Origin: Pseudomonas anguilliseptica
GTDB taxonomy: Bacteria; Pseudomonadota; Gammaproteobacteria; Pseudomonadales; Pseudomonadaceae
DNA: 64,000 nt
Assembly (NCBI RefSeq): GCF_900105355.1
Contig: NZ_FNSC01000002.1
Span: 142,093-206,092, forward strand
Reading direction: 5' to 3'
Positions 4,441 to 64,000 of this stretch are shown piece after piece. Made by a program: the position numbers and the translations under genes. A model generated the notes under the pieces. The model saw only the letters and a list, made by a program, of their open reading frames with translations. It was not told where the DNA came from and did no database searches. The stretch's first letter is position 1, and each line of letters opens with the position of its first letter.

Positions 4441-4643
4441 GAACACCGCCACCTTGATATCCAGCTCGACCAGGGCGGCCAGGCCATCGATGGATTTTCG
4501 GAAATCCACCGGCTTGGGGTATAGATAGACTTTTTCGACTTTGGCGTCGGGGCGCATCATGACGGCTGGCTCCAGAAAGAAATTGGAACTCAGCATTGGC
4601 TGGCCTGCGGATCATTTGTAGATGAGGTTTATGGAGCGCTTAC
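4441..4643 (-). mobile_element. IS66 left-end remnant (203 bp) of an older copy
   Basis: Repeats the last 203 bp of copy B: the first part of tnpB and the left inverted repeat, which ends at 4643 (ATGGAGCGCTTAC on the plus strand). It starts inside tnpB at gaacaccgcc. The outer end is followed by gatgaagt (4644-4651), the duplication partner of 1113-1120. This is what remains of the IS66 that originally interrupted the IS1111 transposase; a second IS66 entered its tnpB and recombination collapsed the tandem. Confidence 0.85.
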
Positions 4644-50987: not shown

Positions 50988-51003
50988 CTGTCTACTTATA
51001 CAG
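50988..51003 (+). promoter_or_regulatory. LexA (SOS) box of the native recA
   Basis: CTGTCTACTTATACAG: CTG-N10-CAG with the A/T-rich centre expected of a gammaproteobacterial SOS box. It is 48 bp upstream of the native recA ATG and controls the truncated gene. A transcript continuing into the divergent recA would also be under LexA, but an IS5 now intervenes. Confidence 0.88.
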
Positions 51004-51050: not shown

Positions 51051-51575
51051 ATGGACGAGAATAAGAAGCGCGCCTTGGCGGCAGCTCTGGGCCAGATTGA
51101 AAAGCAATTCGGCAAGGGCGCGGTGATGCGTATGGGCGATCATGATCGCCAGGCGATCCCGGCCATCTCCACCGGCTCGCTGGGGCTGGACATCGCCCTG
51201 GGCATTGGCGGTCTGCCGAAAGGCCGTATCGTTGAAATCTACGGCCCTGAGTCCTCCGGTAAAACCACCCTGACCCTGTCGGTAATTGCCGAAGCGCAGA
51301 AGCTGGGCGCCACCTGCGCCTTCGTCGATGCCGAACACGCCCTCGACCCTGATTACGCTGGCAAGCTCGGCGTCAACGTCGATGACCTGCTGGTGTCGCA
51401 GCCGGATACCGGCGAGCAGGCCCTGGAAATTACCGACATGCTGGTGCGCTCCAATGCCATCGACGTGATCATTGTCGACTCGGTTGCTGCCCTGGTGCCG
51501 AAAGCAGAGATTGAAGGCGAGATGGGCGACATGCACGTCGGCCTGCAGGATGCAGTATTCGGTGTTGCAGCATAG
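51051..51575 (+). pseudogene. recA: Native recA, truncated after ~165 codons
   Basis: Starts [20 protein letters not shown], the Pseudomonas type. Walker [11 protein letters not shown] and Walker [11 protein letters not shown] are present, and the protein is Pseudomonas-like to [12 protein letters not shown]. Then it changes to DAVFGVAA and a stop (174 aa in all). The break lies just behind DNA-binding loop L1 and removes loop L2, the subunit interface region and the C-terminus, so it cannot be an active recombinase. The missing 3' half and recX are not found in the window. The change at 51550 comes 76 bp before the IS5, so the IS5 did not cause it. Confidence 0.92.
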
Positions 51576-51625
51576 ATTTGGTTCACTTAGGAGGTATCCT
51601 TTCCTCTCGTAGGGGCACGCTCTAA
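51550..51625. other. Left terminus of the DNA inserted in recA
   Basis: From about 51550 the sequence (gatgcagtattcggtgttgc...) no longer matches recA. It supplies the last eight codons and the stop of the fused frame. Without the IS5 it would run straight into the 48-bp leader and start of the divergent recA. I read it as the end of an integrated island; no terminal repeat can be tested without the right end. Confidence 0.6.
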
Positions 51626-52816
51626 GGAAACTCTGAATAAGACTTCCTGATTTTGGCAAAATGCCCGGACGCCACCCGCCGAGTTTTCCGATGAAGCAAA
51701 TGACCTTCGCCGATGCCGAGTACGCCGGCAAACGCAAGCAGACCCGCAAAGAGTTGTTCCTGATCGAGATGGATCGGGTGGTGCCGTGGAAGGGTTTGAT
51801 CGCACTGATCGAACCGTATTACCCCAAGGGTGAAGGCGGTCGGCCGGCCTATCCGCTGATGGCGATGCTACGTGTGCACCTGATGCAGAACTGGTTCGGC
51901 TACAGCGACCCGGCGATGGAAGAAGCGCTGTACGAGACCACTATCCTGCGGCAGTTCGCCGGGCTGAGTCTGGAACGTATCCCCGACGAAACCACCATCC
52001 TCAACTTCCGTCGTCTGCTGGAGAAACATGAGTTGGCTGCCGGCATCCTGGCCGTCATCAATGGCTATCTTGGCGACCGTGGCCTGTCGTTGCGCCAAGG
52101 CACCATCGTCGATGCCACGCTGATCAATGCGCCGAGTTCGACCAAGAACAAGGACGGCAAACGGGACCCAGAGATGCACCAGGCCAAGAAGGGCAACCAA
52201 TACTACTTCGGCATGAAGGCGCACATTGGCGTGGATGACGAGTCGGGGCTGGTACACAGCGTGGTAGGCACGGCGGCCAACGTGGCGGATGTCACTCAGG
52301 TCGACAAGTTGCTGCACGGCGAGGAAAACGTGGTGTGCGCCGATGCGGGTTATACCGGCGTCGAAAAGCGCCCCGAACATGATGGGCGCGAGGTGATCTG
52401 GCAGGTTGCTGCCCGCCGCAGCACCTATAAGAAGCTGGGTAAGAGCAGCCCGCTGTACAAAGCCAAACGCAAGATCGAGAAGGCCAAGGCCCAGGTGCGC
52501 GCCAAGGTTGAGCACCCGTTCCGGGTGATCAAGCGTCAGTTCAGTTATGTAAAGACACGCTTCCGTGGCTTGGCCAAGAACACGGCGCAACTGGTGACGC
52601 TGTTCGCGCTGTCGAACCTGTGGATGGCACGCCGACATTTACTGACCAATGCAGGAGAGGTGCGCCTGTAATGCGGGAAATGGCTGCCGCGAGCTACTCG
52701 CGGCGGCTAAAAACACAGAAATGAATGGGTAATCTGATCGTTTTTGATCGATTTGCCGCTTTCAAAATCGGCGGGGCTGAAGTCAGCCAGAAATACATGG
52801 CTACTTCAGACCATCC
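51626..52816 (+). mobile_element. IS5-family element, copy 2 (1191 bp) with CTAA duplication
   Basis: Same element as 6322-7512, opposite orientation. Ends GGAAACTCTGAATAAGAC (51626) and, inverted, GGATGGTCTGAAGTAGCC (52816). Flanked by a perfect 4-bp duplication CTAA (51622-51625 and 52817-52820), so it is a clean recent insertion between the truncated recA and the divergent recA. Confidence 0.95.
51661..52671 (+). CDS. IS5-family transposase
   Basis: 336 aa, the same protein as at 6467-7477; the family start may be the internal MKQMTFADAEY (51691). Intact DDE domain (DATLINAPSSTK; CADAGYTGVEKR; KVEHPFRVIKRQF). With a perfect target duplication it is likely active or recently so. Confidence 0.93.
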   Translation: MPGRHPPSFPMKQMTFADAEYAGKRKQTRKELFLIEMDRVVPWKGLIALIEPYYPKGEGGRPAYPLMAMLRVHLMQNWFGYSDPAMEEALYETTILRQFAGLSLERIPDETTILNFRRLLEKHELAAGILAVINGYLGDRGLSLRQGTIVDATLINAPSSTKNKDGKRDPEMHQAKKGNQYYFGMKAHIGVDDESGLVHSVVGTAANVADVTQVDKLLHGEENVVCADAGYTGVEKRPEHDGREVIWQVAARRSTYKKLGKSSPLYKAKRKIEKAKAQVRAKVEHPFRVIKRQFSYVKTRFRGLAKNTAQLVTLFALSNLWMARRHLLTNAGEVRL

Positions 52817-52868
52817 CTAAGCAAATCAGTAAGATTCGATTAATTACTAATTCGAGTGGTCGATAAGA

Positions 52869-53912
52869 ATGGATCAGGCAAAAAGCAAAGCGTTAGAAGC
52901 GGCTCTCTCACAGATTGAGAAGCAGTTTGGTAAGGGTTCCATTATGCGACTGGGTTCAGATCGCACTATGGATATCGATGTCATATCGACCGGCTCGCTT
53001 GGTCTGGACATCGCTCTAGGCGTAGGCGGTTTGCCGCGCGGTCGTATTGTAGAGATATACGGGCCTGAGTCTTCGGGTAAGACGACTCTAACACTCTCAG
53101 TTATTGCTGAAGCGCAACGTCAAGGGCTGACATGTGCATTTATCGATGCCGAGCATGCACTTGACCCAATCTACGCAGCAAAGCTTGGCGTTAATATTGA
53201 TGATCTCCTGTGCTCGCAGCCAGATACCGGAGAGCAGGCGCTCGAGATCGTGGATATCCTTACTAGATCTGGTGCTATTAATCTTATTGTTGTCGACTCA
53301 GTGGCAGCTCTTACACCCAAAGCTGAAATCGAAGGTGAAATTGGGGATATGCACGTTGGGTTGGCCGCGCGCATGATGAGTCAGGCAATGCGTAAGATTA
53401 CGGGTAACCTTAAAAACTCGAACACTATGTGTATCTTCATTAACCAAATTCGTATGAAGATAGGTGTTATGTTTGGGAGCCCTGAAACTACAACTGGCGG
53501 TAACGCCCTGAAATTCTATGCCTCGGTACGTCTGGATATCCGTCGCACCGGTGCAGTGAAGGAAGGTGACGAAGTTGCCGGCAGTGAAACCCGTGTAAAA
53601 GTTGTAAAGAATAAAGTTGCAGCACCTTTTAAACAAGCAGAGTTCCAAATTATTTACGGCCAAGGTATTAGTAAGGTAGGTGAAATTGTAGACTTGGCGG
53701 TCGCAAATGATTTTATCGATAAATCAGGTGCTTGGTATGCCTTTGAAGGCAATAAGATCGGCCAAGGCAAGGCCAATACCATGAAGTGGCTGTTGGAAAA
53801 CAAAGCCACCATGGACAAGATTGAAGGTATGATCCGCGAGAAAATGATGCCTAAGAAACAAGCTGAATCCGGTGCCCCGGCGCCTGAAAAACAGCCTGAA
53901 GTCGAAGTTTGA
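52869..53912 (+). CDS. recA: Divergent complete recA carried by inserted DNA
   Basis: 347 aa, full-length RecA with all functional parts: Walker [11 protein letters not shown], Walker [21 protein letters not shown], loop L1 region, loop L2 [20 protein letters not shown], and an acidic tail EKQPEVEV. It differs strongly from the native N-terminus ([60 protein letters not shown]), nearer to the Vibrio/alteromonad/enterobacterial pattern. Codons are AT-richer than in the flanking core. A LexA box is not seen in the 52 bp between IS5 and ATG. It should supply RecA function in place of the broken gene. Confidence 0.95.
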
Positions 53913-53981
53913 TAGTTTGCAGTCCAGCGAAACTTGGCCGAAATTATTACAGCTTCCGGTAGTGTCAGTCAGTCTTGGAAG

Positions 53982-54002
53982 ACCTGGCTGCTAAAGCCAG
54001 GT
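53982..54002 (+). terminator. Terminator-like hairpin after the divergent recA
   Basis: ACCTGGCT / AGCCAGGT with a 5-base loop, then TTTCCCTTT. About 70 bp after the stop codon. Confidence 0.6.
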
Positions 54003-54039
54003 TTCCCTTTAGGCTCTGTAAAGGTTAAATATCTAATAC

Positions 54040-54070
54040 GGCCTGGCTTTCAAAGCTGGGCCTTTTATTT
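54040..54070 (+). terminator. Second terminator-like hairpin
   Basis: GGCCTGGCT / AGCTGGGCC with a short loop, then TTTTATTTTG. The two hairpins share CTGGCT but the gap between them (54003-54039) shows nothing else. The ~150 bp that follow, to the IS30 fragment, contain no gene I can support. Confidence 0.6.
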
Positions 54071-54223
54071 TGTGTTGAGGCGGATTTTAGATCGTGTCGC
54101 TAATTTGCACTATCCGCAGATTATAAGTCTAGTAGAGATGGTGGGTGCTCCCCAATCTGCTAAGCAACGGCGGCGGCAAAAACTGAGTGCAACACCTGAT
54201 CTTTCCGATACGGTGCTGCCCCT

Positions 54224-54466: not shown

Positions 54467-54513
54467 GTAAGCGCTCCATAAACCTCATCTACAAATGATC
54501 CGCAGGCCAGCCA

Positions 54514-54909
54514 ATGCTGAGCTCCAATTTCTTTCTGGAGCCAGCCGTCATGATGCGCCCCGACGCCAAAGTCGAAAAAGTCTATCTATACCCCAAGCCG
54601 GTGGATTTCCGAAAATCCATCGATGGCCTGGCCGCCCTGGTCGAGCTGGATATCAAGGTGGCGGTGTTCGACCCGGTGCTGTTCGTCTTCCTCAACCGCG
54701 CGCGCAGCCGGGTGAAGATTTTGTATTGGGAGCGCAACGGCTTTTGCCTGTGGCTCAAGCGATTGGAGGCTGAACGCTTCAAGTCGCATCCGGAACCTGG
54801 CGAAGATGCGATCGTGCTGACGGCCCAGGAGTTGAACTGGTTGTTGGACGGTATCGACCTGTGGCGCAACCGGCCGCACCAGGTTTTGACCCCTAGGTTC
54901 GTCACCTGA
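54514..54909 (+). CDS. tnpB: IS66 accessory protein TnpB
   Basis: 131 aa, identical to the TnpB at 3998-4393 in the regions compared. Conserved YLYPKPVDFRKSIDGLAALV and RARSRVKILYWERNGFCL. The probable core start is the internal MMRPDAK. Works with TnpC of the same element. Confidence 0.9.
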   Translation: MLSSNFFLEPAVMMRPDAKVEKVYLYPKPVDFRKSIDGLAALVELDIKVAVFDPVLFVFLNRARSRVKILYWERNGFCLWLKRLEAERFKSHPEPGEDAIVLTAQELNWLLDGIDLWRNRPHQVLTPRFVT

Positions 54910-54927
54910 GCCGGTATAATCCACGGC

Positions 54928-56484
54928 ATGATTTCTGTGCCCGAAACCCTTCCTGATGACCCCGCCGCGCTCAAGCAATTGCTCGCTGAGGTGTTGTCGT
55001 CGGCGCAGGAATTGGCCAAGGACAAGGATGGGCAGATCGAGCGCCTGCGCGAACAAAACGCGCTGTTGATCCAGCGCCTGTTCGGCCGTAAATCCGAGCA
55101 GAGCAGCGACCCGGATTCACCGCAGCTAGAGATGTTCAACGAAGCGGAAAGCCTGGCCGAAGCGGCGGCTGAAGCTCCGGCCGCTGAGGTCGAGGAAGAA
55201 GTCGTTGCGCCGACCAAGCGCCGCGGCAAGCGCAAGCCGTTACCGGCCGAACTACCGCGTGTCGAGGTCATCCACGAACTGCCCGAACACGAACTGACCT
55301 GCGAATGCGGTTGCCGCAAGCAGGCCATCGGCGAAGAAACCAGCGAGCAGCTGGAAATCATCCCGATGCAGGTTCAGGTGATCCGCCACATTCGCAAGAC
55401 CTATGCCTGCAAGGCCTGCGAAAGCGCGCCGGTCACCGCTGACAAACCGGCCCAACTGATCGAGAAAAGCCTGGCCAGCCCGAGCGTGCTGGCGATGCTG
55501 CTGACCAGCAAATACGCCGACGGCATCCCACTGTATCGCTTCGAAAAGATGCTCAGTCGCCATGGCATCGACATCCCCCGGCAGACCCTGGCGCGCTGGG
55601 TGATCCAGTGCGGCGAACTGCTACAACCGTTGCTCAACCTGATGCGCGACAGGCTGCTGGACAGTCCGGTGATCCACTGCGATGAAACCCGCGTGCAGGT
55701 GCTCAAGGAGCCTGGGCGCGATCCGAGCAGCCACTCCTGGATGTGGGTGCAGACCGGTGGCCCGCCTGGCAAGCCGGTGATCCTCTTCGACTACACAACC
55801 AGCCGCGCGCAGGAGGTGCCGCTGCGCCTGCTCGACGGTTATCGCGGCTACCTGATGACCGACGATTACGCCGGCTACAACGCCGTGGCCGCACAACAAG
55901 GTGTTGAGCGCCTGGCCTGCTGGGCGCATGCGCGGCGCAAGTTCGTCGAAGCGCAAAAGGTGCAACCGAAGGGCAAAACCGGGCGTGCCGACATCGCGTT
56001 GGGGATGATCAACAAGCTCTACGGCATCGAGCGCGAACTTAAGGATGCCAGCGATGAACAGCGCTACCGGGGCCGCCAGCAGCACAGCCTACCGCTCCTC
56101 GATCAGCTCAAGACCTGGCTGGAGAAAACCCAGCCGCAGGTCACGGCGCAGAATGCCCTGGGCAAAGCAGTGAACTACCTGGCGAGCAACTGGAGCCGAC
56201 TCGAACGCTACATCGAGGCTGGCCACCTGCCGATCGATAACAACGCTGCCGAGCGCGCGATCCGGCCCTTCGTCATAGGTCGCAAGAACTGGCTGTTCAG
56301 CGACACGCCGAAAGGCGCGACCGCCAGCGCCCAACTCTACAGCCTGGTGGAAACCGCCAAGACCAATGGCCAGGAGCCCTACGCCTGGTTGCGCCATGTC
56401 CTCGAACGCCTGCCGCTGGCCAACAGCGTTGAAGCCTACGAAGCGCTGCTGCCTTGGAACTGCCAACCAACGACGCCACTGTAA
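54928..56484 (+). CDS. tnpC: IS66 transposase TnpC
   Basis: 518 aa, intact. Zinc region [14 protein letters not shown] core [39 protein letters not shown]. It has EKSLASPS where copies A and B have EKRLASPS. May be active. Confidence 0.93.
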
Positions 56485-56530
56485 AACGCAAAACCTCTCC
56501 AGAGGGAGGTGGGGTCTATGGAGCGCTTAC

Positions 56531-56910
56531 GCATGAGTCAAGTGCGCATCGCCAAACAGCTGGGCGTCCATTCCGCGACAGTCAGTCGGGAAGTTCGCCG
56601 CAATGGGACTCAAAAGGCCTACAAAGCGGTCCTGGCAGACCAGCAAAGCGGCGTTCGCCAGCGCAGTGCACACAAATTCTGCAAGCCGAAAGTGTGGCTG
56701 CATGCGCATATTCCGCTCTGGCTGGAGCAGGGTTTTAGTCCCGAGCAGATCGCACAGCGCTTGAAGCTGGAATAGCCTGATCAAGCTGTCAGTCATGAGT
56801 GGATTTACCGCTTTGTCGATGTGGATAAAGGGGCGGCGGGTTGCTTTACCTACACCTTCGGCATCGTCGAAAGCGGTACCGCAAACGCTACGTGTCGTGG
56901 TCAAGTTTTA
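56531..56910 (+). pseudogene. IS30-family transposase fragment (right), degenerate
   Basis: Begins in frame at MSQVRIAKQLGVHSATVSRE and continues to LEQGFSPEQIAQRLKLE, where a TAG replaces the expected Tyr codon. The frame after the stop reads PDQAVSHEWIYRFVDVDKG, and a frameshift further on leads to RHRRKRYRKRY. It is IS30-like but unlike the IS30 fragment at 54224. It was joined to IS66 without its own start region. Confidence 0.8.
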
Positions 56911-57359: not shown

Positions 57360-60300
57360 ATGAATGAGCTCGATAGCGCCTTGCTGGCGCTGCTGCTTGA
57401 GGATGAAGCGTCTCAGGTAGACCGCATATCCTTACTGCTATCCGCCGGTCCGTCCCCCCTGTCCTTTGCCCAACAGCGTTTGTGGTTTCTGCAGCGGCTG
57501 GCCCCAGAATCGACAGCCTACAATCTTACTCGGGCTTTTCACCTGAGCGGCAGGCTCGATGTGTTGGCGTTGGAGAAAGCCTTCCAAGCCTTGATCGCTC
57601 GGCACGCGGTATTGCGCACTCGCTTCGAAGACATTCAGGGCGAACCGCAACAGATTGCCCTTGCTGAGGTGTCGTTCAGCCTGGCCTGCGAGCAACACAC
57701 CGGCATGTCTGATGAGGCACAGTTGGCCGTCCTCAGTCGCCGTCTGCAGGATGAGGCCGCACAGACCTTCGACTTGAATCTGGCTCCACTGCTGCGGGTA
57801 ACCCTGCTGCACTTCGACGAGCAGAACCACGGCCTGCTGCTGGCCATGCACCACATAGTCTCGGATGCCTGGTCCAATCCCATTCTGGTACGGGACTTGG
57901 CCGCCGCCTACGCACAGGCCCTGGCGGGACAAACGCCTGAGCTGCCGGTGCTACCCGTGCAATACCCCGACTATGCGGTGTGGCAGCGCCAGCAGTTGCA
58001 AGGCGAGGCTTTGGCGACTGAGCTGCGTCACTGGCGCCAGTATCTGGGCGAGCGCGTGCCGGTACTGGAATTGCCCACCGACCTGCCGCGCCCGGCACAG
58101 CCGAGCCAGCGCGGGCAGCGGCTGCGGTTCGCCCTGCCGAGCGAGCTCAGCGAGCGTGCCCAGCGGTTCTGCCGAGCCGAGAGCTGCACGCCCTTCGTGT
58201 TGCTGCTGGCTACCTGGCAAGTACTGCTGGCGCGCTACAGCGGCCAGCAGGCCTTCGCCATCGGCGTGCCCCATGCGGCCCGCAGCCGGTGCGAACTGGA
58301 GGAGCTGATAGGTTTCTTCGTCAATACCCTGGTCTACCGGGTTGATCTGGGCACCCAGCTGAGCGGCCGCGAGCTATGCCGGCGGTTACGCCAAGAGTCC
58401 TTGGCGGCACTGGATCACGCCGAGCTGCCGTTCGAACTGTTGCTGGAGCAATTGCAAATTGAGCGCGATCCGAGCCGCACTCCGTTGTTTCAGGCGATGT
58501 TTAACCTGAGTAGCGGTGCAGCGGTGTGCCTGAGTCTGGCGGATATCCAGATCGAGCAGCTGCGGATCGATGCCGACAGTGCCAAGTTCGATCTGAGTCT
58601 GGATGTCGCAGTGCGGCCGGATGGCGTGCACTGCGAACTGGAGTACAACCTGGATCTGTTCCTGCCGGCCACCGCCGAGCGCATAGCGGCGCATTACCAG
58701 CAATTGCTGAACGCTTTACTGGACAGCCCTGACTCAAGTGTTTGGCAGCTGCCCCTGTTGGCGAGCGGTGAACGCGAGCTGGTGTTGCGTCAGTGGAACC
58801 GCAGCGAGCGGTTGTTGAACCCGGGTGAGGACATGCTGGCCCTCTTCGAGCGCCGTGTCCTTGTCGCTCCAGGGCGCTGCGCGCTGGTCTGCGGTACAGA
58901 GCAGTTGAGCTACGCCGAGCTGAATGCCAGAGCTAATCGCCTGGCGCACTGGTTGCGTGAGAAAGGTGTGGGCGGCGAGCAGTTGATCGGTGTCTGCCTG
59001 GAGCGCGAGGCCGCATTGCTGGTGGCATTACTGGCGATCCACAAGGCCGGTGCCGCCTACCTGCCGATCGACCCGGCGCAGCCGCCCGCGCGTAACGTCG
59101 ATATACTCGCCCAGGCTGCACCGCGCCTGCTACTGACCCGTGAAGCCTTGGCTGGCCTGTTCGATAACGGCTCGCCGGTGGTCACCTTGGAGTCGCTGGA
59201 ACCGACCCTAGCGACACGCAGCGAAGCGAATCCCGGGTTGCTCGCGCAGCCACGGCAGCTGGCTTACAGCCTCTATACGTCCGGCTCTACCGGCCGACCC
59301 AAGGGCGTGCAGATCGAACGCGAAGCATTGGCCAATTTTCTCCAGGGTATCCAAGCGCATGCGCGTCTGACGGCTAATGACCGGTTGCTGGCGGTGACCA
59401 CTCTGGGCTTCGATATCGCAGCACTGGAGCTGTTCCTGCCATTGCTGCATGGCGCCTGTGTGGTGCTCGCCCAGCGTGAGCATACGCTGCAGCCAGCCGC
59501 CTTGATCGAACTGCTGGAGACCCAGGCGATCAGCGTGATGCAGGCGACGCCGGCCACCTGGCAGATGCTCCTGGATCACGACAGCCCAGCTTGGCAAGGA
59601 CTGCGGGTGCTCTGTGGCGGCGAAGCACTGGCCGGCGAGTTGGCCGAACGCCTGCTGGCGCGCGGTGTGCGCCTGAGCAATGTCTACGGGCCGACCGAAA
59701 CTACCGTATGGTCGGCGGCGCAGAAGGTCGAGCGAGTGGATGCAGCAGTCGTCCCTATAGGTCGGCCGCTGGCCAATAACCGTCTGTACATCCTCGATGA
59801 ATACTTACAACCGCAGCCACCCGGCGTAGTGGGGGAGCTGTATATCGGTGGTGCCGGCCTGGCTCGTGGCTATGCCGGACGTGCTGATTTGACCGCCGCG
59901 GCCTTTGTGCCCAATCCCTTCGCCGTGACCGGCGCGCCGGGGGCAGGCCCAGGCAGCCGGCTCTACCGTACTGGCGATCTGGCCCGCTACCGCGCCGACG
60001 GCAGTGTCGAGTTTCTCGGCCGGCGGGATTTTCAGGTGAAATTGCGCGGCTTTCGCATCGAGTTGGGCGAAATCGAAGCGGCGTTGAACGCCCATGGCGA
60101 GGTACAACAGGCTGTGGTGGCGGTACGCAAAGCACCTGGCGGGCAGGATGCATTGGTCGCCTACCTGCGCGCCGCTCCTGAGTTGCTCAGCGAAAGTCTC
60201 GGCCCCTATCTGCGCGAGCGGCTGCCGGCCTACATGCTGCCGGCGGCCTTCGTCAGGCTGGAGAGTCTTCCTCTGAATGCAAACGGCAAGGTCGACCGCC

Positions 60301-60632
60301 AGGCATTGCCTGCTCCTGTCTGGGGCGCGGCCGAAGCGACGATGCCGCCGGCCAGCGATAGCGAAAAACGCCTGGCCGCGATCTGGACTGAAGTGCTGGG
60401 AGTAAGCGCCATCTCGCGCCAGGACGAGCTCTTCGCCCTAGGCGCGCAGTCCCTGCAACTGGTGCGTATCCAAGCGCGGATCGCCCGCGAGTTCGCCTGC
60501 GAGGTGGCCTTGGCCGAGCTGTTCGCCCATCCGCGTCTAAGCGACATGGCCCTGTTGATCGAACAAGCCTGCCTGACACCTGAAGAGGATCAATGGGCGC
60601 AGATCGACAGCCTGTTGCAAGCCTATGAATAA
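57360..60632 (+). CDS. Non-ribosomal peptide synthetase, one module (C-A-PCP)
   Basis: 1090 aa. Condensation domain at about residues 30-460 with HHIVSDAW (His165/Asp169 catalytic; Ala replaces the usual Gly). Adenylation domain at about 490-1000: YTSGSTGRPKGV, NVYGPTETTVW, LYRTGDLARY and NGKVDR. PCP at about 1010-1075 with LGAQSLQLVRI (Ser for phosphopantetheine). Reading the specificity pocket by hand gives D-I-L-Q-L-G-V-V-W-K, close to glycine-type codes as I recall them; treat as provisional. There is no thioesterase or starter domain, so partners must lie outside the window. Stands before an ABC exporter and a TonB receptor, so probably siderophore assembly. Confidence 0.9.
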   Translation: MNELDSALLALLLEDEASQVDRISLLLSAGPSPLSFAQQRLWFLQRLAPESTAYNLTRAFHLSGRLDVLALEKAFQALIARHAVLRTRFEDIQGEPQQIALAEVSFSLACEQHTGMSDEAQLAVLSRRLQDEAAQTFDLNLAPLLRVTLLHFDEQNHGLLLAMHHIVSDAWSNPILVRDLAAAYAQALAGQTPELPVLPVQYPDYAVWQRQQLQGEALATELRHWRQYLGERVPVLELPTDLPRPAQPSQRGQRLRFALPSELSERAQRFCRAESCTPFVLLLATWQVLLARYSGQQAFAIGVPHAARSRCELEELIGFFVNTLVYRVDLGTQLSGRELCRRLRQESLAALDHAELPFELLLEQLQIERDPSRTPLFQAMFNLSSGAAVCLSLADIQIEQLRIDADSAKFDLSLDVAVRPDGVHCELEYNLDLFLPATAERIAAHYQQLLNALLDSPDSSVWQLPLLASGERELVLRQWNRSERLLNPGEDMLALFERRVLVAPGRCALVCGTEQLSYAELNARANRLAHWLREKGVGGEQLIGVCLEREAALLVALLAIHKAGAAYLPIDPAQPPARNVDILAQAAPRLLLTREALAGLFDNGSPVVTLESLEPTLATRSEANPGLLAQPRQLAYSLYTSGSTGRPKGVQIEREALANFLQGIQAHARLTANDRLLAVTTLGFDIAALELFLPLLHGACVVLAQREHTLQPAALIELLETQAISVMQATPATWQMLLDHDSPAWQGLRVLCGGEALAGELAERLLARGVRLSNVYGPTETTVWSAAQKVERVDAAVVPIGRPLANNRLYILDEYLQPQPPGVVGELYIGGAGLARGYAGRADLTAAAFVPNPFAVTGAPGAGPGSRLYRTGDLARYRADGSVEFLGRRDFQVKLRGFRIELGEIEAALNAHGEVQQAVVAVRKAPGGQDALVAYLRAAPELLSESLGPYLRERLPAYMLPAAFVRLESLPLNANGKVDRQALPAPVWGAAEATMPPASDSEKRLAAIWTEVLGVSAISRQDELFALGAQSLQLVRIQARIAREFACEVALAELFAHPRLSDMALLIEQACLTPEEDQWAQIDSLLQAYE

Positions 60633-60650
60633 GCGTATCGAGGGATATCC

Positions 60651-62311
60651 ATGATGGTCTTTATGTCTTTGCTGCAACGCCACCGTGGTCTGCTCACGCT
60701 GGCTCTGCTGGGCAGCCTGGCGAGCGCGGCGGCTGGCATCGCGCTGCTCAACGAAATCAATCAGCTGATCGCCGGTGCGCAGACCCTGAGCATTGCTCGA
60801 GGGAGCTATTACCTCGGCCTGCTGCTGGTGCTATTTGCCTGTGGTTTCGCCTCCCAAGCCTTGCTGACCGCCCTGGGCCACCGGGTGGTCTATGAGCTGC
60901 GCCTGCAACTGGTCAAGCGCTTGCTGGATACGTCTATCGAGCAATTGGAGAAGATCGGCGCTGCGGGCCTGTATGCCACCCTGAGCAAGGACGTCGAGTC
61001 CATAGGCCAGGCCTTCAACCGGCTGCCCTTCGTGCTCTACAACGGCATCTTGATGTTGGGCGGCTTTGCCTATCTGGCCTGGCTTTCCTGGCAACTGCTG
61101 CTGCTTTGTGGGTTGTTGTTGGGGCTGGGGGTCTGGTTGGCCCATGGCTGGTTCGCGCGGATGCGCGAGTTGATGAAAGTGGTGCGCGACACAGATGATC
61201 AGCTTTACGCCGCCTATACCGCGGCCATCGAGGGGCGCTACGAACTGGCGTTGAACACCCAGCGCAAGCAGCGTTTCTACGCGCTTGATCTGCTTCCAGC
61301 GGCCGACCGTGCACGGGCTAACGAGGTACTTGCCGACCGCTACTGGACGCTCAGCCTGAACTGGACGGTGACGCTGATCCTTGGCTTGGCCGGTGGGTTA
61401 TTCGCCGCTGGAGCGTGGCTGGGCATAGGCGCAGCCACTGTGGCGGCTTTCGTCCTAGTGCTGATGTTCCTGCGCATGCCGCTCAACGATATGATCGGCA
61501 GCCTGCCCACCTTGGTTTCCGGGAATGTGGCCCTGGCCAAGATCGAGTCGCTGACCCTGGCACCTTGTCGTCCCGAGTTCGCTGTCCAACAGCCCAGGGT
61601 TCCCAATAGCGGTGAGCTGCTGCTAGAACTCGAAGGGCTGACTTACGCCTATCCGTCAGTCAGCGATGATTATGGCTTTCACTTGGGACCCATCGACCTG
61701 CATGTCTATGCCGGCGAGACGCTGTTTATCGTCGGCGGCAACGGCAGCGGCAAGTCGACCCTGGCCAAGTTGCTGACCGGGCTTTATCGCCCAAGCGGCG
61801 GGCTATTGAGCTTGCACGGCGAAGAGATCACCGATGAGCGGCGGATTGGTATCGCAGCCATTTTTCCACAGTGTTTTCCAGCTTCCATCTGTTCGAGCGA
61901 CTGGTCGGCCCGACAGGCAATTTCGATCTGTCTCTGGCCCAGGCCTGGCTGGCTCGCCTGCGCATGGAGCGCAAAGTGTCCATCGATCCGGCCGGTCTGC
62001 TTTCCACCACCCAGTTGTCCCAGGGGCAGCGCAAGCGCCTGGCCCTGCTGGTGGCGCTGGTGGAGGAGCGGCCTATTTTGCTGCTAGACGAATGGGCGGC
62101 GGATCAGGACCCGCTGTTCCGTGCCTTCTTCTATCTGGAACTGCTGCCCGAGCTGAAAGCGCGGGGCAAGACGGTAATCGCTATCAGCCACGACGACCGC
62201 TACTTCGCTGTGGCTGATCGGGTGCTCAAGTGTGACGGCGGTCAGTTAAGCGTGCTGGATAAAAGCGGCTTCAGGCCGGTGCAAGAGCAGTTGGCGGTTG
62301 CCGTTAGTTGA
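60651..62311 (+). pseudogene. ABC exporter (permease + ATPase), frameshifted
   Basis: Frame 1 (60651-~61870) holds 5-6 membrane helices and the ATPase start with Walker A VGGNGSGKSTLAKLLTG. Frame 2 (~61871-62311) continues with VFSSFHLFERL, signature QLSQGQRKRLALLVALVEER, Walker B ILLLDEWAADQDP and the H-loop ISHDDRYF. The break is at ATTTTTCCACAG, one T short of the frame giving IFSTVFSSFHL. Restored length is ~553 aa, the PvdE/SyrD cyclic-peptide exporter type. It follows the NRPS after 18 bp and would move the product across the inner membrane. Confidence 0.85.
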
Positions 62312-62497
62312 ATTTTGGCTGCTGGTGTTCGGGCATCCGGTACAGCTAACAAGCGGTTATCGATCTGAGCCTTATACGGCTTTACCAGGTAAACGTCTGG
62401 CAAAGGCTTGTGAGATGGCACTTTGCATAGTTGCAATTGCAATTGCAATTGCAAATCGTTATCGTTATCGACTCTATTTGATAAGTTGGGGGGATAT
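62312..62497 (+). promoter_or_regulatory. Intergenic region with hexamer repeat and Fur-like box
   Basis: Four tandem TTGCAA units at 62431-62454, followed by ATCGTTATCGTTATCG (62455-62471), which on the other strand reads GATAACGATAACGAT and is Fur-box like. Then comes the receptor start. No hairpin terminator is obvious after the ABC exporter. A promoter for the receptor gene may lie here. Confidence 0.55.
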
Positions 62498-64000
62498 ATG
62501 CAGCATCGAGGAAAGCGGTCAAAGCAGGGCGCGCGGGTTTCCAAGCGTCTATTGATGCCATTTATGCTGAGCGGCATCGCCTTCTCAGGTGCGTCATGGG
62601 CTGAGGAGCAAGCCGCGCCAGCGGATGCTCTGGATCTGCCTGCGCAGACAATCACCGGCAAGCAAAACGACGAAACGGTGGTGACCGCAGGCTCGAAAGT
62701 CCCAGTTAAGCTGCGCGAAGTACCACAAACGGTCAATGTGGTCGGTCAGCAGCGTATCGAGGAACAGAACCTCTACACCCTGGAACAGGCCATGAAGCAG
62801 GTCGGCGGGGTGACGGTGCAGCGCATCGATGCCAACCGCACGACCTATCTCTCTCGCGGCTTCGAGATGACCTCGCTGTCATTGGATGGCACGCCTACCA
62901 CTATGGATGGCCGCATCTTCCTCTCGCCGGACATGGCGATGTACGAACGGGTTGAAGTACTTAAAGGCCCGGCCGGTATCCTCAATGGCACCGGCGGCAC
63001 TGGCGGTACCATCAATCTGGTGCGCAAGCGCCCGCAGGCCGAAGCGGCGGTTGACGGTGAACTGAGCGCCGGGTCCTGGGATGACTATCGCAGCATGATC
63101 GATGTCACCGGCCCGTTGACCGAGAGCGGCAATATCCGCGGCCGTGCGGTAGCCAGCAAGCGTGACCGGCATTTCTATTACGACGGCGGCGATGAAAAGA
63201 GCAATCTGTTCTATGGCGTGCTGGAAGCCGACCTGACCCCGGATACTCTTTTGACCTTGGGCGTTAGCCATCAGGAAGTGGATGCGCGCGGTGCCCAGCG
63301 TTCGCTGCCGTCCTATCTGTCGGTGACCCCGGGTGGTGATTTCAAGCTGTCACTGGTCGATGTCTCGCGCTCGAATTTCTATGGCGCCGACTGGAATCGT
63401 GACTATTTCTGGAGCGACAGCGCTTTCGCCGAGTTGGAGCAACAACTGGCTGGTGGCTGGAAGGCCAAGCTGTCCCTGCGCCATGCGCAGAATAACTTCG
63501 ACCTGACCCAGGCATACGCACGCAACGGTTTCGGCATAGACCCAGAGCTCAATGTGGTGGACATCAACGCCATCCGCTTCGACTACCGCGAAGAGCAGAA
63601 CGAGGTGGATGCCTATGTTGATGGGCCGTTTAGCCTGTTCGGTCGCGAGCATAAGCTGCTGCTCGGGGCCAACTACAGCCGTTCCGAATTCCACAACAAA
63701 GGGGATTTCGACTCCGAGTTTCTCGAAGAGGTGGATCTGTTCGATCCGCAGGTCAGCGCAGCGCAAATTGACTTGGTTCCTCAGCAAGACGTTTTCGCCG
63801 ATACACGTCAGCGTGGGATCTACAGCAATCTGCGCCTGAGCCTGGCCGACCGTTGACCCTGGTACTGGGCGGGCGTCTCTCCTGGTGGGACTTCGACAAC
63901 ACCACCTACACTCCGAGCGTTGCCCGCACCGGCAATAGCAACGACAATATAGACGGCGAGTTCACCCCTTTCGTCGGCCTGGTTTACGACATCAACCAAA
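62498..64000 (+). pseudogene. TonB-dependent siderophore receptor, frameshifted; runs off window
   Basis: From ATG 62498: signal peptide (RLLMPFMLSGIAFSGASWAEE), plug domain without an STN extension (ITGKQNDETVVTAGSKVPVK; EVPQTVNVVGQQRIEEQNLY; YLSRGFEMTSLSLDGTPTTM; VEVLKGPAGILNGTGGTGGT) and the first part of the barrel. The frame stops at 63856 after LSLADR. One missing C (GACCGTTG for GACCCGTTG) explains it, since the next frame continues LTLVLGGRLSWWDFDNTTYT to the window end. Looks like an FpvA/FoxA-type ferrisiderophore receptor lacking the signalling domain. Probably imports the product of the adjacent NRPS. Confidence 0.88.

Follow-up and report, generated by a model that had tools for sequence, protein, structure and literature searches.

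A probable decayed recA mobile element of a Pseudomonadaceae branch in the recA gene of Pseudomonas anguilliseptica

The split recA gene and its surroundings

The window, by which we mean the whole stretch of 64,000 nucleotides that was analysed, forms the right end of contig C2 (206,092 bp) in a genome of 5.23 Mb assembled into three contigs. The genes mutS and cinA precede the native recA, which starts at position 51051, reads as RecA up to codon 166 (CAG, 51546-51548) and then continues with eight foreign codons to a TAG stop at 51573-51575. A complete and divergent recA lies further downstream in the same direction. The features are as follows:

50988-51003, + strand: SOS (LexA-type) box CTGTCTACTTATACAG of the native recA
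51051-51548, + strand: 5' part of the native recA (recA'), codons 1-166, with a Pseudomonas-type RecA reading
51543-51548, + strand: 6-bp core CTGCAG, common to the host site and the element end; the empty site is seen in p60503-DIM
51549-51575, + strand: left tip of the element, with the in-frame tail DAVFGVAA and then the TAG stop
51576-51625, + strand: beginning of the element leader, which measures 124-126 nt where uninterrupted
51626-52816, + strand: later IS5-type insertion, flanked by CTAA at 51622-51625 and 52817-52820; the copy on contig C1 is without it
52821-52868, + strand: remainder of the element leader, ahead of the element recA
52869-53912, + strand: the element's complete divergent recA
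53913-54168, + strand: DNA 3' of the element recA, common to the C1 copy
54467-56531, + strand: IS66-type element interrupting the region

It had been claimed in an earlier note on this DNA that the native recA, complete with its SOS box, ceases to be recA after codon ~165 and is followed by a complete, divergent and AT-richer recA. Both claims are borne out by the cut after codon 166 and by the gene at 52869-53912, which has a third-position GC content of 45% versus 76% in the native half; the junction, placed at 51550 in that note, was found to lie at 51548/51549. The transposase gene between the two recAs belongs to the later IS5-type insertion that is missing from the C1 copy. We rejected the segment from 54.5 to 64 kb (the IS66-type element and genes for an NRPS, an ABC transporter and a TonB receptor) as island cargo, for which no support was found. 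The NRPS, ABC transporter and TonB-receptor-like open reading frames extend from 57360 to 63856, up to the contig end, and the ABC reading frame at 60651-62087 continues in another frame at 61871-62311.

A genome-wide search returned five RecA matches, corresponding to two complete copies of the foreign type and, for the native gene, two 5' halves and a single 3' half, and no intact native recA, which would have spoken against the earlier note, was found in the three contigs. The missing codons and recX, for which a search had been suggested, were both located on another contig than recA', the 3' half at C1:41423-41734 on the minus strand with recX adjoining. A second block of recA' and element recA, at about C1:3222385-3224051, is without the IS5-type insertion and is 99.7-99.8% identical to the block in the window. 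At the left junction, ...CACGTCGGC-CTGCAG runs into GATGCAGTATTCGG, and at the right junction, near C1:41,726 beside the recA 3' half, CGTACTGCTTCCG runs into CTCCAG-GCCCGCC. When aligned to the uninterrupted recA of a non-carrier (G063), the 5' half from the window and the 3' half from C1 are adjacent with a 4-base overlap. The ends of C1 overlap by 10.5 kb at 99.96% identity, and this contig is probably the circular chromosome with untrimmed ends; C2 carries mutS, tRNAs and siderophore-like genes and is not self-closing.

The untrimmed ends of C1, the failure of C2 to close and the location of the element ends on different contigs are features that would also be expected if the split recA were a misjoin in a repeat-rich genome. 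However, two slightly differing copies carry the junction in this assembly, and the same junction is repeated in independent genomes and in complete plasmid records, which makes an assembly artefact hardly credible.

Carriers and the recombination module

The comparison of the junction with relatives, as proposed in the earlier note, gave the same codon and the same tip in independent sequences: five Pseudomonadaceae genomes besides ours, four plasmid records and two viral-filed contigs. In a RecA family search of 119 genomes of the genus, two separate recA halves were found in the genome studied here (G000) and in the draft genome of another species (G075), the backbone of which is ~88% identical to the window and the element recA block ~96%, and which carries both junctions as in our genome. 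The element RecA as query matched 2 of 398 genus genomes at an E-value of 1e-180 or better and the RecA of a relative matched 5 of 398 family genomes, our genome included, the two draws of genomes overlapping. In four further carriers (G670, G416, G597 and G611), the divergent recA comes immediately after recA', and the 3' half is found on a separate contig. Six loci were obtained in a scan for gene A of the recombination module described below, in P. frederiksbergensis SI8, P. indica NBRC 103045, S. kunmingensis 28M-8, S. chloritidismutans AW-1, P. chengduensis 402 and P. mendocina EF27, the first four of which we took to be the four carriers just listed. Matches were obtained in 2 of 56 genomes of Stutzerimonas and in one of the two genomes of the genus of P. 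indica.

The two viral-filed contigs (L047 and L048) show the same split and are the sole two with a second, partial RecA match among 80 RecA loci on viral contigs. Scanning the viral contigs with the leader pattern gave nine stretches, only these two known ones being within recA, and gene B had one remote match (21%) among these contigs. On both contigs, phage-tail-like genes are followed by cinA and then by the split recA of the host, that is, they contain host DNA beside a prophage. As a separate observation, second full-length RecA genes of another type are present at G063:C86:5444-6229 (L030), with a protein ~64% identical to the element RecA, and at G038:C11:69113-69895 (L032). A RecA match in two pieces with an internal TGA at G076:C357:17440-18221, in a genome of ~650 contigs, is perhaps a sequence error.

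A RecA at least 90% identical to that of the element is encoded in 3 of 72,556 plasmid records, from P. putida YC-AE1 (504 kb), P. aeruginosa (pNY11173-DIM) and P. putida (pKF715A). On each of these plasmids, the element recA comes after a cut plasmid recA and the left tip is of the same kind, and in pKF715A the element sits in a different plasmid recA. The element on the YC-AE1 megaplasmid is the only one seen whole, the far end of the chromosomal relatives not being in one piece with the left end. It comprises 19,824 bp with the core CTGCAG at each end and has a GC content of 52.3% versus 54.7 and 55.9% in the flanks; its gene D aligns as overlapping pieces and may be broken. The related plasmid p60503-DIM has the same recA uncut, with the core present once, and pTTS12 has kept both ends but carries an IS and a shortened gene B, and the 31.7 kb read from it include no complete recA of the element. 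Among the 72,556 plasmid records, matches to gene A were limited to two, as were those to gene D. Furthermore, two of five additional records, of the P. aeruginosa plasmids pBT2436 (L188) and pNY8709-IMP (L190), have a frameshift in the plasmid-borne recA exactly at the target site, near 4490, and such frameshifts may have been left behind when an element departed or failed to insert. The plasmids designated as IncP-2-type below are given as rep_cluster_1115 in the records.

The far (right) end of the element in the relatives holds a module of four genes, A (582 aa), B (about 620 aa), C (186 aa, the small protein of the module) and D (428 aa), which read away from the recA 3' half. In the proteins B and D, the residues that a tyrosine recombinase should have are conserved, and the product of gene A is predicted to have a tyrosine-recombinase fold, according to a re-examination of Foldseek's own matches with a model that is weak past residue 405. 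A profile comparison of A with B gave no match. In our genome, a frameshift and an IS have disrupted gene A, which persists in pieces (residues 1-33, 34-122 and 117-201), and gene B had no match with the same approach by which the pieces of gene A turned up. Gene B was also without a match in 369 genomes of the class, a result that is uninformative because the sample held no known carrier, and the missing match in our genome calls for similar reserve. With its module broken, the element can scarcely excise unaided.

The 6-bp core at codons 165-166 (nt 493-498) reads CTGCAG or CTCCAG, and a one-base difference between the two ends is possible, as expected for a tyrosine-recombinase exchange. 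In the YC-AE1 element, GCAGTA occurs near both ends in inverted sense, and the end-to-end alignment was equalled by 194 of 2000 shuffles.

Could the foreign recA simply have arrived by ordinary transfer on a block bounded by insertion sequences, with IS recombination breaking the native recA later and no site-specific element involved? The region is rich in insertion sequences, C2 having 11 hits of the IS5 type and 9 of the IS66 type that exceed 500 bp, and the block of recA' and element recA is duplicated on C1, as might be expected from such a history. Yet 13 left ends, drawn from various species and plasmids, have the identical cut and tip, and the relatives carry the recombination module at the other end, which makes such a chance origin very improbable.

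We therefore favor the hypothesis, at a probability of about 0.9 and on the basis of sequence comparisons, that a recA mobile element (RME), belonging to a Pseudomonadaceae branch and now decayed, occupies the locus. The insertion lies near nt 491-494 of recA (core at nt 493-498, element from 51549), a complete divergent recA is located at one end, and site-specific recombinase genes are located at the other end in the relatives, gene A being broken and gene B not found in our genome. The earlier note was right in suggesting that a site-specific element had entered recA and supplied a divergent copy, a strategy of the Vibrio type. Its inserted island stands as an element in recA, but what we see here is a broken remnant with its ends on different contigs, a pseudogene for gene A and no gene B found; the tyrosine recombinase that it proposed to look for near the ends is a feature of the module in the relatives.

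According to this hypothesis, the module A-D would recombine a circular form of the element into recA at one site, and the left end would stop the cut gene eight codons on. The element recA would be driven by the host SOS promoter, so that the cell keeps an inducible RecA, and would escape cutting because it is without the core. Megaplasmids with the element in their recA would carry it between species. In our genome, insertion sequences would have broken the module and parted the ends, with the foreign type remaining as the sole complete recA.

Leader, tail and origin of the element RecA

In a screen solely for the CTG-N10-CAG box, this motif was absent from all 11 element leaders (124-126 nt). 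It was present before recA' in 9/9 chromosomal-type left ends, in which our genome is counted twice, and in 0/4 plasmid ones, within the 220 nt searched. From this arrangement of the sequences, we infer that the element recA is transcribed from the SOS-regulated recA promoter of the host. Capture of the promoter of a plasmid recA need not give SOS control, no box having been found in the 220 nt searched before the four plasmid recAs. In the window, the IS5-type insertion may impede transcription that starts at the host promoter; no such interruption exists in the C1 copy. The alternative, an SOS-independent expression of the element recA from a promoter of its own within the leader, would be in line with the conservation of the leader (124-126 nt), with its AT-richness near the start codon and with a possible hairpin in some relatives. 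We consider it doubtful, in view of the host SOS promoter upstream and in the same direction in all nine chromosomal-type left ends. The possible hairpin (for example at L127 6790-6832) is not uniform among the carriers, with energy z-scores of -3.9, -3.0, -1.3, -0.9 and -0.3 in five of them, and is weakest in the window's own genome.

The cut reading frame ends eight codons on in 13/13 left ends (nine chromosomal-type, our genome again counted twice, and four plasmid), with six different tails that all end in Ala-Ala; the pattern used to collect the left ends fixed the first bases of the tip but left the tail end free. Amino-acid changes occur at tail codons 4-6, while the only variation in the two Ala codons is between GCA and GCG. 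The tail looks like either a proteolysis tag or a second recombinase motif that is read by chance, and we hold the second to be more likely. It is rather probable that the Ala-Ala tail is a by-product of a second recombinase-binding motif (TGCAGCAT after TGCAGTAT) with no role in protein breakdown. The two 8-mers differ by one base in the window type, and strand-biased circularizing integrative elements (SE) are reported to carry a motif C1 next to their motif C in the available part of the account (PMC5991714). On the other hand, the varying bases are the third positions of the Ala codons (GCA/GCG), and codons 4-6 vary in the encoded residue. A more elaborate scenario is that of a complete gene-replacement kit, combining the single-site cut, an ssrA-like Ala-Ala tail for ClpXP, SOS-promoter capture, a core-less recA and docking in megaplasmids, in which ClpXP would remove an N-terminal fragment able to poison RecA filaments. 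We regard the kit as a whole as unlikely.

The element recA reads HVGLAAR, without the core, at 12/12 loci and in 15/15 proteins, and HVGLQAR stands at this place in the RecA rows of native Pseudomonas genes and of the IncP-2-type plasmids. The LAAR form also occurs in the RecA of Alteromonas, Shewanella and E. coli, and hence need not have evolved for immunity; it was probably inherited from the donor lineage. Without the core, the element recA would not itself be a target, a potential case of cargo immunity. In a tree of 34 RecA proteins, which has several long branches and is unsure in its details, the element RecAs are placed on one supported branch (100/99) with 21 rows, consisting of 15 element RecAs, 5 mosaics and one remote row. 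This branch is separated from the native Pseudomonas RecA and is nearer to Alteromonas, Shewanella and E. coli, in agreement with the other gammaproteobacterial lineage envisaged in the earlier note.

Among the mosaics, P0045 (named from Pseudomonas sp. 905_Psudmo1), P0046 and P0050 are of the element type to about residue 200 and of the native type beyond, P0048 continues as a plasmid RecA and P0052 has the reverse order, with the switches near residue 200-240. These patterns suggest recombination of the element recA with a native half. Searching for the hybrid recA with P0045 in 249 genomes of the genus gave six matches (85-87%), one of which is the native recA of G063, and all six are presumed to be native recA. 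Another protein, P0044, was considered as a link to V. cholerae S24 and dropped, its sequence being close to the Pseudomonas-type P0043.

Significance and relation to known systems

We consider the Pseudomonadaceae branch of RMEs, the plasmid recA genes as docking sites and the mosaic recAs to be new, as well as the leader without an SOS box behind a host SOS promoter, the element recA without the target core and the left end that gives the truncated RecA a tail ending in Ala-Ala. No recognisable description of an RME in Pseudomonas was found in the open-licence full-text literature, as judged from listings. The recA gene is central to repair and widely used as a typing marker. Its replacement by an element misleads recA-based typing, and an element in recA shows mobile DNA living in a gene that the cell can hardly do without. 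The Pseudomonadaceae branch offers a testable account of how regulation may be maintained (the host SOS promoter) and how the cargo gene could evade its own element (the missing core). The recA genes of megaplasmids are a likely route between species, and the mosaic RecA proteins suggest that visits by the element leave lasting hybrids.

The closest parallels are found in Vibrio. The available parts of the report on V. cholerae S24 (the strain given as S12 in the earlier note) describe an RME that cuts recA at nt 494, with a divergent recA at one end and an integrase at the other, its own LexA box at recA, umuDC and 9-bp inverted repeats (PMC4405046). Our element resembles it in the cut near the same nucleotide and in the divergent recA and integrase at opposite ends, according to this partial description. 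Excision of the S24 element was shown to restore recA (PMC4405046), which weakens the earlier proposal that loss of the element is costly; here, the module is broken and the element recA is the only complete one found, so that the proposal may hold for this genome. Unlike S24 with its own LexA box and umuDC, as far as described in these parts, the Pseudomonadaceae leaders are without a box (0/11), and we treat the LexA box before the element recA as a trait of S24 rather than of RMEs generally, as it is described for S24 only.

For VpRME of V. parahaemolyticus 090-96, the parts of the report available give a cut at nt 491 of recA, the 6-bp core TCTCCA, a truncated recA of 525 nt with the complete divergent recA adjoining and 6-bp terminal inverted repeats (PMC4334540). 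Its far-end genes, of about 650, 674, 243 and 435 aa as computed from table 3, read away from the recA 3' half, and the last is a site-specific recombinase (PMC4334540). The truncated recA of exactly 525 nt, the 6-bp core, the four far-end genes and their reading direction are the same here, whereas the host, the cargo and the donor lineage of recA differ from what is given there. The gene sizes and order of the two modules agree in this account, a likeness by size and order alone.

Two other families share the four-gene plan, as judged from partial accounts and likened here by description only. The SE have four core genes (intA, tfp, intB and srap; published order intA, second gene, intB, fourth gene), two tyrosine recombinases and a 6-bp spacer, and some of them replace the function of the cut gene, as SE-6283 does for bcp (PMC5991714, PMC9345347, PMC10214605). 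Three of our four genes have a tyrosine-recombinase motif or predicted fold, and the 6-bp core, which may correspond to the spacer, occurs once in the empty site and at both YC-AE1 ends; unlike the order given for the SE, the clear recombinase D is the innermost gene. The GInt elements, islands of Pseudomonas, have a module of four genes (ginA-ginD), three of which encode tyrosine recombinases or related proteins (PMC5385486, PMC10214605), and their targets include the end of ssb (PMC5385486). They resemble our element in having a four-gene plan in Pseudomonas and differ in the replacement recA, none being mentioned for GInt in the available parts of these reports (PMC5385486, PMC10214605). 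The element is thus filed as an RME of a new branch, its architecture agreeing with that of the Vibrio RMEs.
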